This document shows, in pieces, positions 4,830 to 47,129 of a DNA stretch of 64,000 bases. Numbering within the stretch: the stretch's first letter is position 1; each line of letters begins with the position of its first letter. The DNA lies in assembly GCF_036785885.1 (NCBI RefSeq), contig NC_092320.1:14137557-14201556 (forward strand), given 5' to 3'. The DNA comes from Coffea arabica. Taxonomy: Eukaryota > Streptophyta > Magnoliopsida > Gentianales > Rubiaceae. The translations under genes and the position numbers were made by a program. A model generated the notes under the pieces. It was given only the letters and a program-made list of their open reading frames with translations, made no database searches and had not been told where the DNA came from.

Positions 4830-5196
4830 ATACACCAACCGCACAGAAACAAACGGTAGATTAGACAGGAAAAAAAAATGTAATGTTCCAGGAGAAAAAG
4901 CGGAGGGAGAGTTAAGCACCGAATTTGCAGTGGGGATCACTCGGGCCGACGGTAGCTAGGGTTCCGGGAGTGGACGAAGCTCTGTTATTACTCATCTGAG
5001 CTACTACTACTGGAATTGAACTGTTGTCAACAGTTTTAGAATTCACTTGCTCATAACCATCACCACCACCACCTCGAGAATTTTCATCAAATTCTTTTCT
5101 GTACTTTGAATTCTGAGCCGCTGCTTCATCTTCTCCTTCGCAGCTCGGGCTTTTGCTGCTACTATTATTTTCAGAATTGAAATTTTTGGCGTCCAT
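108..5196 (-). CDS. WRKY32: Group I WRKY transcription factor, WRKY32-like (5 exons)
   Basis: This is a nuclear DNA-binding transcription factor expected to bind W-boxes (TTGACC/T). Exons on the minus strand are 5196-4920, 4628-4576, 2930-2224, 2114-1956 and 465-108. All junctions are GT-AG and phases are consistent, giving 517 aa. The 53-nt second exon (17 whole codons) is the only piece I found that joins exon 1 (phase 1) to exon 3 (phase 0). Two WRKYGQK heptads are seen, near residues 211 and 384, each with a C2H2 finger; this defines group I. The last intron splits the second domain after PR, the conserved position in this family. The C-terminus [16 protein letters not shown] and the KKIECS finger of the N-terminal domain match Arabidopsis WRKY32 as I recall it. 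In Arabidopsis WRKY32 has been linked to photomorphogenesis; whether that holds here is inference. The start ATG at 5196 lies in a CCATGG context. Confidence 0.93.
4796..4828. repeat. (CA)n microsatellite in WRKY intron 1
   Basis: About 16 CA units lie in the first intron of the WRKY gene, between exon 1 (4920) and the micro-exon (4628). The open frame running through it (HTHTHTHT) is low-complexity and not a gene. Confidence 0.9.
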
Positions 5197-5222
5197 GGCC
5201 CCTGAGTGCAGCAGCTGCAGCA

Positions 5223-6705
5223 CACAGTTAGTGCGTGTAATATAGAGAGAGAAAGGAAAGGTGATATAATTTCTTTTTTTGGAACGTTATTTTAATTTTT
5301 GCATTTAACCGCATAGTTTTGGTTTAGCGGTCGTGGTTAGCAATTCGGGTATAAACATGGGTTCTGATTAGTATTGTTTTGGGCGCGCAACCATTGTCGT
5401 ACTAAAGTGACATTATTGTCCTTTAAAACAAAGTAAAAATGTGTAATCAAGAAAAAATATTGCTAAATTTAGGAGACAATTAAAGTAAAAATAGAAAAGG
5501 GCAAATTCCAATAGTTGAAAATGAAAAGGAGCATAGATGGATGAAAATAACTAAGTTGGCTTAAAATTTTGGTCCTTAAAATTAATCTTAGAAAAGTTTT
5601 AATAAAACTAAATTGTGCACGCAATATGTTTAGTCAAACTGTAAAGTCAGATAAGACGCATTTAGACGCTCTCCAAAAGTATCTTTCTTTACCTCTATTA
5701 AGAGATAGTCAAAATTTGTCTAGTATACCTTTTTGTCGTGTTATCACTTATCACTTAATTGGAACAAAATTATTTTGCAATATTCGAAAATTTATGACCA
5801 ATAATAAATTATTACGAAAATACACTACTAATTGCAGATATTAACGTTGTTTCAATTTCAATATATGAAGCCTCGTGGATTCAAATAGGATTTACTGATT
5901 TTACTCTAAAAGTTGCAACTGATTCAATTGAAACTTGAATTAGTAATATTGTCATTTTTTTTTAGGAGAGACTTTGCCAGTAGAAATGTGCAATACAAAG
6001 GCATGAGGGTACAATAGTCATTCGAGAGGGAAGAAAGAGGATGAGTGGACCGGAGCGGCCAGAAATGAGAATAGTAACCGGGGTGAAGGCCTAATATAAC
6101 AATGAACCGGACAAAAGATCCGAGGAAAGGGAATTAATGGAGTGTGTTGTTGACTGCTGTTGACTCAGGTGCTTTCTGTATTACTTATTATTTATACTTA
6201 TGCCGGCATCTTCTAAACGGACGTTAGATTCTCCGTTGGGCGTTAGATTGGTGGGTGGCTCAATCAGGACTATCTATGACCGGCGCGTTGACGTTTTCGT
6301 TCTACTAGCACCTGAAAAATTCACAATTTCATCAAATTCGTCTATTCACATTTTTTTCCTTTTTGTTTTTACAAACTAATTTCATTTTCTATTCTAAATA
6401 TGACTAATCTAAATTTCTGAAATATATATCACATGAGTTTATATTATATCTTCCAATAATTAAATAAATGATATTATAAACAAGTACTATATCCTATAAT
6501 TACCGATCTTTTTATTATATTTTTGTGGAGTAAATAAAAATAGAAGAGCATGGACTAACTTTGGTAATATTAGGTCTAAATGCATGATATATGATAAATG
6601 CATGATATATGATATGTGTTCAAATTTATTTATTTATTTTTACATGTCTTATGTGTCTACATTTGTTTGTGAAAAAAAAAATTGCACTGATTGATATAGG
6701 AAAAA
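5223..6705. other. WRKY 5' flank and intergenic DNA
   Basis: The minus-strand segment just above the start codon is CT-rich (about 5222-5260), which fits a plant 5'UTR. Beyond the W-boxes I see only AT-rich DNA; the open frame at 5569-5844 shows no recognisable domain. Confidence 0.5.
6150..6293. promoter_or_regulatory. W-box cluster upstream of the WRKY gene
   Basis: Two TTGACT W-box hexamers (6150-6155 and 6160-6165) sit 10 bp apart, with a TTGACG at 6288-6293. They lie about 0.95-1.1 kb upstream of the WRKY start codon. Paired W-boxes are common in WRKY promoters and support auto- or cross-regulation. This is inference from motif and position only. Confidence 0.45.
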
Positions 6706-7192
6706 GGGAGAATTGTAATTTTGGTCCCCAATCTATAGTGTATGTGCGGAATTATTTTCAATCTATTTCAAAAATTAATTTTGGTCCCCAATCTATTCAA
6801 TTTTGCTCTAAAGTGGACAATTGACGGAATCTCTTCAATTTCAATCGAAACTAAATCACCTGAGATCACGTGCCGGCATCTAAAACCCCTTTTTCAATTT
6901 TTTAATTTCTAAAACACGTTTTTTTAATATTTTTAGTTTTCTCTTGCCTTTTGTCTTATTAAACAAAGACATGAAAGGGGTAATCTCACAATTCAAATTA
7001 CTCCTCTTATTGGCTGCCGCCTTCAAATCCTCAAAACCCATAGCACGAGTAAGAAGCTCAGCTTAGCCTCCAAGTCCAAGTCTCGTTCTTGCCTCTATTA
7101 GTAATGGAGATAATCTGCAATCAGCGTCAGAGGTGGACCCAGTTCAACTCTCCTGCACAAACAACAGGAGCAGCAGCAATACTACTTCATAA

Positions 7193-7212
7193 GCAAGCAA
7201 GCAAGCAAGCAG
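7193..7212. repeat. (AGCA)n short tandem repeat
   Basis: Five AAGC-type tetramers lie inside the Pack-MULE between its left arm and the P450 exon. The surrounding 7000-7230 segment is not P450-like and may be a second captured piece of unknown origin. Confidence 0.6.
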
Positions 7213-7238
7213 CCGAGAAAGAAAAGTGGTTGATAACA

Positions 7239-7959
7239 ATTGGAAATCAAAGGGATTATACGGACCAAATCATCAAAGGGATTATACTGGTAAGTATATT
7301 TTTTCCCTATTAGCCATTCTTCACCATTGAACTGGAATGAGCATTCAATTGAACCACTAATATATTATTGGTAGATTATGTTTACGGCCGGAATAGACAT
7401 TTCATCGGTGACTATAGAATGGGTCTTGTCTCTTTTGCTCAACCATCCCGAGGTACTAGAAAAAACTCGAGCTGAATTGGATGCTCAAGTAGGGACTGAT
7501 CGATTGGTCGACAAATATGATCTATCCAATCTTCTTTATCTTCATAATATTCTTTTAGAAACACTTCGGTTGTACCCAACAACACTAATGCTAGTGCTAC
7601 ATGAGTCGTCCGATGACTGTAAAATTGAGGGATACAATATTCCGTGAGGCACAATTTTGCTAGTTAATGCATGGGTAGTTCACAGGGACCCAAACGTTTG
7701 GGATGATCCAACAAGCTTCAAGCCATAGAAATTCGAAGGCTTGCAGGTTCAGCCATCAAAGCTGCTTCCATTTGGGATGGGAAGGAGATCTTACCCTGGT
7801 TCTGGCCTAGCACACCGGGTGGTGGGTTTGGCCTTGGGATCTCTAATTCAGAGTTTTGATTGGAAAATAATTAGCGAGGAGGATATTGATTTGGCTGATG
7901 GGATAGGAGTGTCCATGCCAAAAGTTAAGCCACTAGAAAAAATGTGTTTTAGAAATTAA
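7239..7959 (+). pseudogene. Captured cytochrome P450 (CYP81-like) 3' gene fragment, inactive
   Basis: An exon-1 tail (DYTDQIIKGIIL) ends at a GTAAGT donor (7290). After an 84-bp intron and a TAG acceptor, exon 2 starts at 7375 with [11 protein letters not shown], the I-helix oxygen-binding region. The K-helix ExxR appears as ETLR. The heme loop reads [14 protein letters not shown], so the axial Cys codon is TAC (Tyr) at 7792-7794. In-frame stops occur at 7645-7647 (TGA) and 7726-7728 (TAG). The intron is kept, so the capture was from DNA, not mRNA. The I-helix and heme-loop wording resembles CYP81 proteins. The 5' two thirds of the gene are absent. Confidence 0.85.
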
Positions 7960-8157
7960 AAAAATTGAAAAAGAGATTTTAGGTGCCGACACGTGATCTC
8001 AACGTGACTTAGTTCCGATTGAAATTGAAAAAATTCTATCAATTGTCCACTTTAGCACAAAATTGAATAGATTGGGGATCCAGATTGATTTTCGAAATAG
8101 ATTGGGGATAATTTCGCGCATACACTATAGATTGGGGATCAAAATTACAATTCTCCC

Positions 8158-8689
8158 TAGGAAAAAATAATTTAAAAGCATTCCAACAAACTATCATTTC
8201 AAGTAATCGGGGAAGGATTTTTAGAACTTTTCCTATTATCAGATCAACAATTTGAATCTTGGCCACCATTAAGACAATTGGAATGAAATTTGCTCTCTTT
8301 TTTGTATTTCTTGTATCTAAAATTAGTTTGTCATTTATAGAAAAGTCATGTAGAGTATTTTGAGGTGGAGAACCAAACTCTGTGGTTAATACTCATAAAA
8401 GGGTGCATTAACATGCTGGATAAACAAGAAGTCAAGCTAAGTTCTCCATCTCTACCGGCAAAAAGAGAAAACTCGCAAGGGAATTTTTTTTTCCATTTAA
8501 GCAGAAAATCTAAAATTTTAACTACAAATTGTCCATTTCTTCATTCTACAAACACAAAGGAGATGTCTAAAACGCGTCAGAAATCCCTCTTGGATCAGCT
8601 TGAAGAAATTGATTAATTAGTTCTAACTACTATCTTGAAAGTTTAAGCAGCAAAAATTTTGTTTTACTATTATTTTGCTATACTCGAGC
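8158..8689. other. Intergenic DNA, no gene recognised
   Basis: AT-rich sequence with one 83-codon open frame (8365-8616) lacking recognisable motifs. I see no signal of a gene. Confidence 0.4.
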
Positions 8690-11069: not shown

Positions 11070-11489
11070 GCATGAGATGGTTCAGTTGGTCAAGCAAAAT
11101 CTTCGTGAAATGCGTGCTATTTGTTGGAACTTTTCCCGGCAGGGAATGGCGCAGTCTGCGGGAAGTGACCCGGTCTACATCGTTCATCCATCTTTGGGTT
11201 AATTCCTTATAACCCCTTGTACTTTTTCCTGTACCCAGTTGGCCCCTATTGTTTTGAATTGCATCATTGTTCTCATCATAATTGTTTTGGTGCCTTGACC
11301 TGTAATTGAGTTTTGGAACTTTAATAAAACTGTGTCTAATTAATTTACCAACCTAATTCCGATGATAAGGGGGGCTGTGTTAGGTGGTTTGAGAGAAAAA
11401 AAAATATAAGTGAAAAATCTCAAAATTTAACCCTTTTATTTACACTTAAAAAATAAAATAAAATAACCTAATTCTGATGATAAATTATA

Positions 11490-12976
11490 GGGATAATTGC
11501 ATAAACCTCCCTTGAGGTTTCTGACATTTGCACTGACCTCCCCTGTAGTTTGAAAAATTACACTGACCTCCCCTGAGGTTACTAATCCTTTGCAAATTCA
11601 GTCCAAATGATTAAAATATTATTTTAGGAAGTGAAATTAGAATTTTTTTTTATCAAATTTGTCCTTTGTACTACATGTCCAATGAATGACAAAATACTAC
11701 AAATCAATTAACAATTAATAAACTTTAAAGAGTATAGTTTATAGACAAATATGCATTACCTATTTAAAGTAATGGCTCTTTATGGGTATTTTACTTTCAA
11801 ACATTTAATTTAATACAAATATTTAGGCTCAAATACATATTTGTATTTACTTTCAAATATTTAATTTTTGTTAAATACAACAACTACCAATCTCTCTTCC
11901 GTAAAAATATTAATATAACACCTTTTCAATTTTAGTTACAAATATTTATGTATTTAACATAAATTAAATGATTCAGAATAAAATACCCATAAAGAGCCAA
12001 TACTTTACTCATGTAATGGATGAAAGTCATAAAGAATTAATACTTTATGGGTCATTTTAAAAAAATAATTTATATTAAATAAATAACCTAACGATTTTCT
12101 TTTTGCAAGAATATTACTGTAACACTTTTTGAATTTTACTAACAAACATTGATATATTTATCATAAATTAAATATTTGAAAGTAAAATATCCGTAAAAGG
12201 TCGGTACTTTAAATGAGTAATGCGTGTTTGTCTATAAAGAGTCGGTAACTATTTAAAGTACCGGTTCTTTAAGGGTATTTTACTTTCAAACATTTAATTT
12301 AATACAAATATTTACACTCAAATACATATTTGTATTTACTTTCAAATATTTAATTTTTTTAAATACAAAACCTACCAATTTCTCTTCCATAAAAATATTA
12401 ATATAACACTTTTTCAATTTTAGTTACAAATATTTATGTTTTTAATATAAATTAAATGATTCAGAATAAAATGTACATAAAGAGCGAATACTTTACTCGT
12501 ATAATGGATGAAAGTCATAAAAAATTAATACTTTATGGGTCATTTATTTTTTTTAAAAAAAATTAATTTATATAAATAAATTATCGATTTCCTTTTTGCA
12601 AGAATATTACTATAACAATTTTTGAATTTTACTTACAAATATTGATATATTTATCATAAATTAAATATTTGAAAGTAAAATACTCGTAAAGAGCTGGTAG
12701 TTTAAATGAGTAATGCGTGTTTGTCCATAAATTATACTCCTTAAAATTTATTAATTGTTAATTGATTTATAGTACTTTGTCATTCATTGGATATACAGCA
12801 CAAAGGGCAAATCTGGTACAAATTTCTAATTTCACTCCCTAAAATAATATTTTAATCGTTTGGACTAAATTTGCAAAGGATTAGTAACCTAAGGGGAAGT
12901 CAGTGTAATTTTTTAAACCACATGAGAGGTTAGTGCAAATATTAGAAACCTCATGGGAGGTATCTGCAATTATCCC
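11490..12976. mobile_element. Foldback-type MULE with 9-bp TSD and internal duplication
   Basis: Ends are GGGATAATTGCATAAACC at left and its near complement at right. The inverted arms stay similar for at least 270 bp (about 11490-11760 against 12700-12976). The 9-bp TSD TAAATTATA is perfect at 11481-11489 and 12977-12985. The interior is non-coding and contains a roughly 490-bp direct duplication. Confidence 0.88.
11745..12730. repeat. ~490-bp tandem duplication inside the foldback MULE
   Basis: Copy 1 (about 11745-12235) and copy 2 (about 12243-12730) share long blocks such as GGGTATTTTACTTTCAAACA and AATACTTTATGGGTCATTT. Each copy begins in the inner part of the inverted arm. No reading frame is conserved between copies. 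Confidence 0.75.
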
Positions 12977-13754
12977 TAAATTATACTGGCCCGAGTAGGT
13001 CACATGCATGGCTTATGACTTAGAGAGCCCCAGTTGTCAACGTGGAAAGAAATGCTTGCCTTTCACAATTATGCTAACCAAACAAAATACCTAAAGAAAT
13101 AAAATATCCCAAGTTTCTTCACCTCTTTTGATTAAACAAATAAAATAAGACCATCTTAATCTCACTTAATACTTAACCTAAAAGTTAATTCTCTAGGATG
13201 CAAAGATTTTTTTTTTTTTTGGAAGTGATATAGATCTACATCACTTGTACAGATGTACTAAAAATCTTAGTGTGTCAAAGAAAAATTGTTATGTTTTTTA
13301 TGGATACATTTTTTAATGATATTTTTATTTCATATATATCAAATCGTTACAGTAATTTTTCTACAAAAAGTCCAGAAAAATGCAATTCAAACAAATGGAA
13401 ATTAGCTTTATTTCTTTAAACAACTTGAATCTTTTTATATCTTTAGATTTATGTCCCATACGTTATAATAAGCACATTTTTGGCGTTGTCAACTTATAAA
13501 GGATCAATCCTCAAAACTAAATTTTCTTAACTAGATTTAAAGAGTATATGGTAAGAGTTAAAGAGTATATGGTAAGAGAACTATGGTAAGAGAAGTTTCC
13601 TGTATCCTAACTTGATCAAATTGACGATTACAACCCAACGCGAAGCGCCAAAACAACCAATTATTTGGGAAGTTGAGAATTTTCTCTCTATTTTTTTTTT
13701 AAAAAATTTTGGGTAAAGAAGAGCTTAGAAGGAAAAGAAAGTTACTCAATTCTA
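12977..13754. other. Intergenic DNA, nothing recognised
   Basis: AT-rich sequence with a short direct repeat (AAAGAGTATATGGTAAGAG, twice near 13540-13580). No gene-like open frame. Confidence 0.4.
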
Positions 13755-39465: not shown

Positions 39466-41209
39466 TCATCGAGCAACTAGTCTTGTGATGGTTGCAGTAT
39501 CAACTTGTCCTGTTCCTTCTGACAGTGTGGAGGACTTATCTCCATCTTCATCTTTTTTAATAGAGAAAGCTGGTCTTTTTGGATGCTTCATATCCAAATT
39601 TTCGTTCCTAAGCATATGAGAAATTTCTAGCATGTTAGGTCTATCATTTGGATCTTCTTGAACACACTGAAGAGCAATTTGAAGGCATCTCATTAGTTTG
39701 CAAGATGAATGTGTGTCATCCAGTGTTTCATCTAGAAACTCTTTGCCTTCTCCATTTTTCCATAGCTCATATGCCTGTATAAAAGTTCAAAAAGTCAAAT
39801 AACTGCAATCCAGTTATACTTTGAGCAAATTGTTTGCAAGTTCTAGTAATTCTACCAGCGCTTCTGCAATAACTTACATATTCTAGGAGGTTTATATTTG
39901 AACGAGATCCATAAAAGCATGTATTTTTTCGTCCACTGATTATTTGAAGAAGTAGAACTCCAAGGCTGAAAACATCCGATTTTGTGGAATATATCCCTTC
40001 TCGTACATATTCAGGTCAGGGGCGGATTTAAAGTGGGGGCACGGGCCCCCACTGCCCCCCTTAAATTCTCGTAATACATTTACAATTTTGACATAATTTT
40101 AAATGTGTCCCCATAATTTTTTTTAGAAAAAATGTGAAAGAATGAGTCACAAAATTTATATCATTCACTTTTCTCCTCTAGTTCCTATTTTCCGACCAAT
40201 AGGGCCAAGTACCAATTATATCAGTTATTCCTTTTGGTCCCCACTCCCCAAGTTCCCTTTACTTCTGTGGTCCCCCATTTTTCTTCACAACCGGCTCCTC
40301 TTCTTCCACACCCAAGCCAACTACTTTTTTTTTTTTATCACTTCATCCAATTATCATCTACTTCCTTTATCTCCACTCCCCCATTTCCACTCCCCCATTT
40401 CCCTTTCCTCATCTGGCTCTCGGTTGTCCCCACTCCCCAACATACATAGGAGAGCCATTTTTTTCCACAACCAAAGCTTGTTACTCTTTCTTTTGATCAC
40501 TTCATCCTATTTAGAGATTGCACCAGAATCAATTGATTTTCTAGAACTTGGGTCCGCCACATTTTGCAGCTCTTTTCACCAACTTTAGGAAACCATCAAA
40601 ATCAGATTCTAAACAATTACTTCTTATTATTATTATTTTAAATTTGTTTGCAAATATATTTCTAGAGCATGAGACTATTACTGTTTTAAAGAAATTTGAA
40701 AATTGATTAGTTAATGTAATAATTAATAAATGGGTTATTTGATAAATATTTTAACTTGTGAAATGGTGATTTTATGCATGAGACTTTTTTTTTTGCTTAA
40801 AAAATTATAAAAAGAGTAGCTAAAAAATTTTAATGTTATTTTTGCCCCCACTAAATTTTTTTTCTGGCTCCGCCCCTGATTCAGGTGGAACATAACCACT
40901 GCAGCATACATCATAAGCTTAGCAACTCATGAGAGCATTCTTTAGGTTAGTTGTAGAATCATTTCACTTACTAGGTGCCAACTACTCGATCGGTGTTTGC
41001 TTCAACCTTGTCCTTTTGGAATATTTTGGCAATTCCAAAATCTGATATTTTGGGTTTCATTTGATCATCCAATAGAATATTGCTAGCTTTTAGGTCCCTA
41101 TGAATTATTGTTAGTCTTGAGTATTCTTGGAGATACAAGAGTCATTGAGTCACTCCCTCAATGATTTGTGCTCGTTGTTCCCAGTTGAGGGACAAGCGGT
41201 TGATTGGAT
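39466..41209 (-). pseudogene. G-type lectin S-receptor-like kinase, kinase C-lobe remnant with hAT insertion
   Basis: Three minus-strand exons survive. The first (41209-40972) carries [15 protein letters not shown] and [11 protein letters not shown]. The second (40898-39878, interrupted) carries [20 protein letters not shown] and LLEY. The third (39774-39466) carries [13 protein letters not shown] through RPNMLEISHML to the stop. Splice phases join perfectly (VGTYGYVPPEY) once the hAT at 40017-40878 and one TSD copy are removed. A TGA replaces a residue in EGVTQ*LLYL in the first exon. The extracellular lectin, S-locus, membrane and kinase N-lobe parts were not found. The closest style is the CES101/SD1-type RLKs. 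Confidence 0.85.
40017..40878. mobile_element. hAT element inserted in RLK exon (family of 45644-47129)
   Basis: Inverted ends CAGGGGCGGA and (complement) CAGGGGCGGA, with the perfect 8-bp TSD ATTCAGGT (40009-40016 and 40879-40886). 862 bp, no transposase. It splits the RLK codons for PPEY. Its ends and much of its interior match the larger copy at 45644-47129. Confidence 0.9.
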
Positions 41210-45643: not shown

Positions 45644-47129
45644 CAGGGGCGGATTTACAGTGGGGGCACTGGGGGCACGGGCCCCCACTGCCCTCCTTAA
45701 ATTCCTATAATACTCCTATAATTTTAATACAATTTTAATGGTGCCCCCAGAATTTTTTAAAAAAAATATGAAAGAATGGGCCACAAAATTTATATCATTC
45801 ACTTTCCTCTCCTAAGGACCAAATATCAATTATATTAGTCATTACTTTTGGTCCCCACTCTCCAAGTTCCCTTTACTCCTGTGGTCCCCCATTTCACTTC
45901 ACAACCCACGACTCCTCTTCTTCCACACCCAACTAACTACTCTTTCTTTTTATTACTTCATCCAATCATCATTAATCATTTACTTCCTTTGTCCCCATTC
46001 CCCAATTTTCTTTTCCTCTTTTGCCTCTTGGTTGTCCCCACTGAAAATGGTCTCTCCCATCAAATAGTCCGACCCTGGTTTTCCTGTCATGAAAATGGTG
46101 TTGTTGACTACTTCAAACAGTGTTCCATTAGAGGAGTAGGCTTTTTGAAAACCAAGACCTGCTTTCTTCAGTTCAACCGCAAGAAACCAGTCCTTGAAGA
46201 TGACTTCTTTCCAATTAAATAACGTGATACAGGGCACAAAGGAAGTAAAGGGACCTGAGTCTGCCACAGTGCCACTGATTTGCAACTCTTTTCACCAATT
46301 TTGGGAGACCATTGAAATCAGGTTTTAAACAATTATTTCTTCTTATTATTATTTTAAATTTGTTTGCAAATATATTTCTAGAGCATGAGATTATTACTGT
46401 TTTAGAGAAATTTGAAAATTGATTAGTTAATGTAATAACTAATAAATGGGTTATTTGATATTTGATAAATATTTTAACTTGTGGAATGGTGATTTTATAG
46501 ATTTATAATTTATTTTTTATTTTCCATGATTAGTTTCTTATTTGGAGTTAATGTAATGATGAATAGAGGGCATTTGACATATATTTTAACTTTTAAATTA
46601 TTCTTATATGGATCCTTTTGTCTAATTAACTTGATTAGGTTCATATATTCTAATTAATGATTTGATATAGTAATGAATGAATAAGTTGTGATTTGATATA
46701 GTAATGATATGTTGTGATTAATGATTTAATAAATAATTTTAACTTGTAAAATAGTTCTTGGATAGATTATTAGATTTTATTGTACATTTAATATTTTAAT
46801 TGGATTAGTATCTTATATATTGATTTTAATTTCTTTAGCTATGGAGAGATATTTCAAGAGGAAATCAATGGAAAAAGAGCCATCTAATAAAGAAGAAGCC
46901 AAGGATAATGAAGGTGCAAAAAATGACAATAAAAGAAGTTTTTAAATAAAATTATTATTACATTAATAATTTTGAGTTTGTCTTTTTATGTTTTTCATGG
47001 AATATACATATCAATTGTACTTGTTAGTGAATTTATTTATTTTTTGCTCAAAAAATTAAAAAAAGAGTAGATAAAAAATTTTAGTATTATTTGTGCCCCC
47101 ACTAAGATTTTTTTCTGGCTCCGCCCCTG
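45644..47129. mobile_element. hAT element nested in MULE, with transposase start
   Basis: Ends CAGGGGCGGA at both termini and the perfect 8-bp TSD CTCTCACC (45636-45643 and 47130-47137). 1,486 bp. Same family as 40017-40878 but with two extra parts: an unrelated block at about 46040-46265, and an AT-rich stretch including a transposase N-terminal coding piece (46841-46945). Confidence 0.9.
46841..46945 (+). pseudogene. hAT (TTF-type/ZMYM-like) transposase N-terminal remnant
   Basis: Reads MERYFKRKSMEKEPSNKEEA...KRSF and stops after 34 codons. Many plant hAT transposases of the TTF-type zinc-finger class begin M(E/K)RFFKRKS, so this very likely marks the start of the original transposase gene; everything after it has been deleted. 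It sits about 185 bp from the right terminus, so the parent element probably carried the transposase from this position. Confidence 0.6.

Follow-up and report, generated by a model that had tools for sequence, protein, structure and literature searches.

Pack-MULEs are known from rice, maize and Arabidopsis. The family described here resembles those elements in its long terminal inverted repeats (TIRs), its 9-bp target-site duplication (TSD), its non-autonomous nature and its load of host exon and intron pieces, and differs from them in being a chimera of two genes present at at least 59 loci. In tomato, PM-ZIBP is an amplified Pack-MULE family whose tree leads back to a single parental gene of that genome, with 13 tandem-TIR copies and one single-TIR copy; another MULE type in tomato has 29 copies, and related single-TIR elements average 3 (PMC3310237). 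The present family is likewise amplified and traced by a tree to a parent in the same genome, but PM-ZIBP carries one gene fragment, mostly with tandem TIRs, whereas our family carries two gene pieces with single TIRs (PMC3310237). A grapevine MULE family that carries intron and exon sequence of cellulose synthase, as presented in the available part of a second report, is comparable in coming from a eudicot and in its host exon and intron, which amount to DNA-level transduplication, although the captured gene is a different one and that part contains no analysis of junctions or empty sites of the present kind (PMC2528002). KI-MULE and other ULP-bearing MULEs, treated in the same part, also combine high copy number with host-derived sequence, but they bear a ULP protease domain, and KI-MULE is described as a non-TIR MULE (PMC2528002). 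A literature search of titles and abstract openings, in which few subscription journals were covered, returned no earlier report of this Pack-MULE family. Given its two-donor build and the completeness of the evidence, the family is a strong example rather than a new class. Few captures can be traced within one genome from both donors, via the joint, to amplified copies and an empty site.

The window, a stretch of 64,000 nucleotides of Coffea arabica DNA, corresponds to C11:14137557-14201556 in a searched genome of 1,197,963,845 bases in 131 contigs. Positions 6706 to 8157 of the window are very probably one copy of a non-autonomous Mutator-like (Pack-MULE) family in which a founder captured pieces of two genes and then spread. 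This copy is flanked by TAGGAAAAA on either side (6697-6705 and 8158-8166, no strand assigned), a perfect TSD within the 9-11 bp of MULEs. The left TIR occupies 6706-6924 on the plus strand and, by self-alignment, is about 220 bp long with an internal 21-bp repeat at 60-bp spacing; the right TIR occupies 7939-8157 on the minus strand, with repeat homology from 7937. In a within-window comparison, the inverted arms 6705-6924 and 7937-8158 align over 222 columns at 87.8% (E 1e-74), and a 20-21-bp repeat at 60-bp spacing is found inside each arm. The inverted repeats and the TSD, both reported in an earlier note made on this DNA, are thus long (about 220 bp, 88%) and exact, respectively. The element starts with GGGAGAATTGTAATTTTGG and ends with its near reverse complement. 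A 23-base terminus, searched with up to 3 mismatches, matches the window only at the two element ends (0 and 1 mismatch), with 0 occurrences in 100 shuffles. Apart from about 3 bp, 6706-8157 consists of TIR or subterminal sequence and the two gene pieces, and no transposase of its own is present. The divergence between the two TIRs (K80 0.128) was rejected as a measure of insertion age, because, in comparisons between copies, the window arms align with the opposite arms elsewhere in the family at 87-94%, so that its two ends differ in any case.

Larger elements with the same ends link the family to MURA-type transposases. Among the TIR matches listed, at least six TIR pairs lie 5-9 kb apart, and three of these elements were read: L088 (C10), L094 (C5) and L095 (C1), which match the window element at both ends at 85-91%. 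Of the window element, positions 1-291 correspond to the left end of L088 and to either end of L095, positions 1-273 to the right end of L088, and positions 1-270 to either end of L094. The segment at 6925-6982 (plus strand) is therefore subterminal MULE sequence, common to L088 and L095. L088 carries DBD_Tnp_Mut (PF03108) in broken-up transposase frames, while L094 carries PF03108 (DBD_Tnp_Mut), PF10551 (MULE) and PF04434 (SWIM), split over two overlapping frames; related broken transposase frames were recognized in L095 by alignment and reading. As these same-ended larger elements carry transposase pieces, the family is, judged from its ends, one of MuDR-type MULEs. None of the three is an intact autonomous element. 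The shorter copies most likely obtained their transposase in trans, from elements of this type. At C19:44556573-44556992, two exact TIR ends spaced by only 420 bp mark a relative of the family that is of MITE size.

The P450 piece lies in the plus orientation and comprises the end of exon 1 (7257-7289, YTDQIIKGIIL, identical to the donors L054 and L055), an intron (7290-7374, with GT at 7290 and AG at 7373-7374) and exon 2 (7375-7938). The earlier note had described a CYP81-like gene end with its intron and splice sites at 7239-7959; the P450 identification and the splice signals hold, but the piece extends only from 7257 to about 7938. Exon 2, read with X at its stops, matches PF00067 (E 2.1e-51), and the best matches among solved structures are other plant and animal P450s. 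In this copy the exon contains in-frame stops (TGA 7645, TAG 7726), and the heme-loop Cys codon is replaced by a Tyr codon (TAC, 7792-7794). The parental gene, which the note had proposed to look for, was sought genome-wide with a degenerate pattern for a residue stretch without counterpart in the element (TAYTAYACNGAYSARATHATHAARGG); this pattern was drawn from CYP81 residues, and donors with other residues there would escape it. Six places were found, aligning as three pairs (C13/C14, C13/C14 and C19/C20). L055 on C14 aligns with window 7257-7946 over 690 bp without a gap at 91.7%, and its homoeolog L054 on C13 does so over the same 690 bp at 89.9%, the 85-bp intron being included in both. 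Two other pairs were rejected as donors: L056/L057, with 85-86% identity, and L058/L059, with 65% over part of the sequence. The donor runs on upstream into a full exon 1 and downstream to its own stop, beyond both points at which the element match ends. The joined exons of L055 read as a whole P450 (PF00067, E 1.3e-97) and form an open gene, which we take to be of the CYP81 type, the profile match being to PF00067 only. Because the 85-bp intron is collinear with that of the donor, the capture took place at the DNA level, as the note had held. L054 (C13:18379000-18388900) has a late in-frame stop, whereas its C14 homoeolog reads through, possibly a one-sided loss after polyploidy.

The reading of the element as a P450 capture was incomplete, since a second captured gene piece occupies 6983-7242 on the minus strand. 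In antisense, it corresponds to the 5' UTR and opening codons of L087, a gene on C2, with 83.7% identity over 257 columns; other family copies match L087 at 86-90%. The L087 exon closes with the beginning of an SBP zinc-finger domain (PF03110, E 9.8e-10, profile positions 1-32 of 75, where the fetched stretch stops), and on this basis the donor is an SPL-type transcription-factor gene. Both captured pieces therefore have an identifiable parent, the CYP81-type L055/L054 and the SPL gene L087. As the SPL piece is less donor-like than the P450 piece, the true donor may be an unsampled SPL paralog. The SPL gene occurs twice on C2 (55484699-55485600 and 55751357-55752354), at 98% identity, on opposite strands and about 267 kb apart, and the second copy is broken by a short insert. 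Among the best 40 places scored, no C1 homoeolog of these genes was found.

The two pieces are separated by 3 bp, followed by 11 bp of repeated P450 sequence (7246-7256, plus strand). This repeat opens a 26-bp tandem duplication ending at 7271: positions 7246-7261 and 7272-7287 both read ATCAAAGGGATTATAC, at a spacing of 26 bp. The 26-bp unit is present in 55 of the 56 copies compared; L036 (C8:16034280-16035900) is the sole copy without it and represents either the ancestral form or a reversion. Since L036 lacks the unit, the slip may be later than the founder. With a 5-bp match (TATAC) at its bounds, the slip is suggestive of template switching during filling. At the right junction, the majority of 40 copies reads CTAGAA joined to AAAACGTG, where the donor reads CTAGAAGCCATGTG, so the captured P450 sequence ends at 7936-7938, with about 2 bp common to the TIR. 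The last codons and the TAA in the window are, by this comparison, TIR sequence rather than P450. A C-terminal "KMC" was likewise rejected as captured P450: the family majority has ACGTG, as in the TIR, and the donor-like ATGTG is a departure from that majority. The junction, with its 26-bp slip at a 5-bp match and its TIR overlap of about 2 bp, informs how MULEs fill with host DNA. We propose that genomic DNA from two unlinked genes was copied into a founder element, between its inverted ends. From an SBP/SPL gene the founder would have taken up the 5' UTR and the beginning of the coding part, in antisense; from a CYP81-type gene it would have taken, in sense, the final 11 codons of exon 1, the intron and almost the entire exon 2. 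At the inner junction, the copying end would have slipped back on the P450 template at TATAC, giving the 26-bp tandem, and the composite would then have spread.

The note, which had suggested a search for other copies of the TIR family, missed that the element is one copy of an amplified family. Three merged searches gave at least 59 loci. A whole-element search with 1,470 query bases turned up 344 first-look candidates; scoring covered 40 of them, in 41 rows, and 37 rows span 1,370 or more of the query bases at 87-100%, the other four being shorter. A pattern spanning the P450 repeat junction was found at 54 places and an SPL-piece pattern at 56, two of which are the SPL genes themselves, while TIR ends (up to 2 mismatches) number 173 genome-wide. 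Copies from 56 of the 59 loci entered the comparisons, namely that of the window, 39 others and a further 16; the partly fetched L089 was left uncounted. Both ends are present in 44 of the 56, and some of the other 12 were perhaps truncated when they were fetched. A perfect 9-bp TSD flanks 34 of the two-ended copies and one with 8 of 9 positions identical flanks 7. The perfect TSDs are 93% A+T and comprise 33 distinct sequences, L077 and L078 being a local duplicate.

The contigs pair as homoeologs, consistent with an allotetraploid, and some insertions are shared between partners. Both flanks are shared by L019/L074 (C4/C3) and L081/L082 (C5/C6), and one flank by L028/L039 (C13/C14, right only) and L011/L073 (C9/C10, left only); on C9/C10 the left flanks show 100% identity across 100 bp. 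A 75% flank match between L014 and L027 was rejected as a shared site, as it joins opposite sides and is taken for a chance or repeat match. Most simply, the shared insertions would predate the subgenome split, although exchange between subgenomes could also have produced both the shared sites and the grouping of the donors. The split of the two progenitors is placed at 4-6 million years ago (PMC11018527). A tree was built from 52 element rows, the two donors and two paralogs as outgroup; four of the 56 copies, whose P450 part was too short, were dropped. The 52 elements fall on one side of a branch (96/90) and the two donors on another (98/92), in a bootstrap that fell short of full settling. 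Because the donor homoeologs group together, apart from the elements, the P450 capture most likely predates their split. The single element branch and the 26-bp unit in 55 of 56 copies point to one founder. The window copy groups with L041 and L079 (100/99). Its end branch (0.044) exceeds those of the shared homoeologous pair e019/e074 (0.027 and 0.024), and for this reason an alternative is that the window insertion occurred before the subgenome split and was followed by sorting or loss. Taking shared and unshared sites together, the spread would have started before the subgenomes separated and apparently went on afterwards.

The insertion of the window copy is recorded at a homoeologous site on C12 (L070). 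Window 978-6705 matches L070 1-5690 at 95.7%, and window 8158-10719 matches L070 5682-8283 at 92.6%. These two matches overlap by 9 bp, and C12 reads ...GATATAGGAAAAAATAATT..., with one TAGGAAAAA and no element, as the earlier note had required of an empty site. This structure is the prediction of an insertion with a 9-bp duplication. The note's reading thus withstood both of the refuting checks it had set, the one on the empty site and, with the donor gene running on past both limits of the match, the one on the extent of the P450 exons. The site belongs to the other subgenome rather than to another individual, and it is the one site examined, for the window copy; together with the distinct TSDs, it documents past mobility.

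The captured sequence has decayed as non-coding DNA would. Exon 2 contains an in-frame stop in 39 of 52 copies and a frame-changing net indel in 22, and only 6 copies have neither. Non-CpG differences from the family majority are distributed over codon positions 1, 2 and 3 as 411:358:319, without codon-position constraint, whereas the intron signals are kept in most copies (GT in 49 of 52, AG in 50). The codon at the window TGA is CGA in 34 of 52 copies and TGA in 6, that at the window TAG is GAG in 42 and TAG in 2, and at the heme codon 38 have TGC and 8 TAC. Because most copies have CGA, GAG and TGC there, the window stops and the heme Tyr are most simply explained as mostly later changes, after capture. 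The note had concluded from these changes that the fragment gives no active enzyme; the changes are present, but being mostly post-capture they say little on the captured fragment, in which most of exon 1 was missing from the outset. The decay marks of one copy should not count as properties of the capture. The captured intron (7290-7374) differs among copies at a rate of 0.026, against 0.040-0.066 for the exon, SPL and TIR parts.

The cargo could nevertheless be functional, with element transcripts giving rise to small RNAs that damp the SPL and CYP81-type parents. The SPL piece is antisense and spans the start region, which favours such a role, and exact 21-mers common to the window copy and L055 number 125, those common to it and L087 number 21 (maxima among the 56 copies, 269 and 90). 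The window copy thus has few perfect SPL matches, however, and the captured coding parts show no sign of constraint (rates of 0.045 for exon 2 and 0.044 for SPL against 0.050 for the 5' TIR), although the intron is at 0.026; we consider this role unlikely. A full-length transcript from either end would be antisense to one parent and sense to the other, and through its dispersed copies a single transposon family could in principle link an SPL developmental regulator and a CYP81-type enzyme by way of small-RNA control, a scenario that we regard as a long shot. It is very improbable that the chimera is a new protein gene, starting at ATG 7104 and continuing in frame through the splice into the P450. 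The window copy does have an open 62-codon exon in frame with exon 2, but this frame needs an extra 4-bp GCAA unit that is missing in the majority of 40 copies, and the open frame was rejected on that account; it also stops at TGA 7645, and the frequent exon 2 stops and indels and the lack of codon-position bias argue against coding. That the locus is a local P450 pseudogene flanked by chance inverted repeats, without a transposon, would account for the decayed reading frame only and is refuted by the empty homoeologous site, the TSD and the at least 59 dispersed loci. The preferred reading remains a two-gene Pack-MULE that spread from a founder.

A minus-strand ORF (4912-5286) that gave no Pfam match has the left TSD 1,501 bp upstream of its first ATG; WRKY domains were found in two ORFs further along the minus strand (2220-2939 and 108-548). 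We infer that the three ORFs belong to one predicted WRKY gene, so that the window copy would have landed 1.5 kb upstream of its first ATG and decayed there. Other repeats occur in the window. Window 8675-9135 matches many dispersed places, mostly at 77-89% (1.6-kb query, 1,557 first-look candidates, best 40 scored), and is an unrelated high-copy repeat adjoining the element. Window 11483-12982 contains nested direct and inverted repeats, with a tandem of about 490 bp at 90% and inverted outer arms at 86%, and looks like a rearranged inverted-repeat element. Finally, window 40017-40878 and 45644-47129 are same-orientation duplicates, with 77-90% identity in three blocks.
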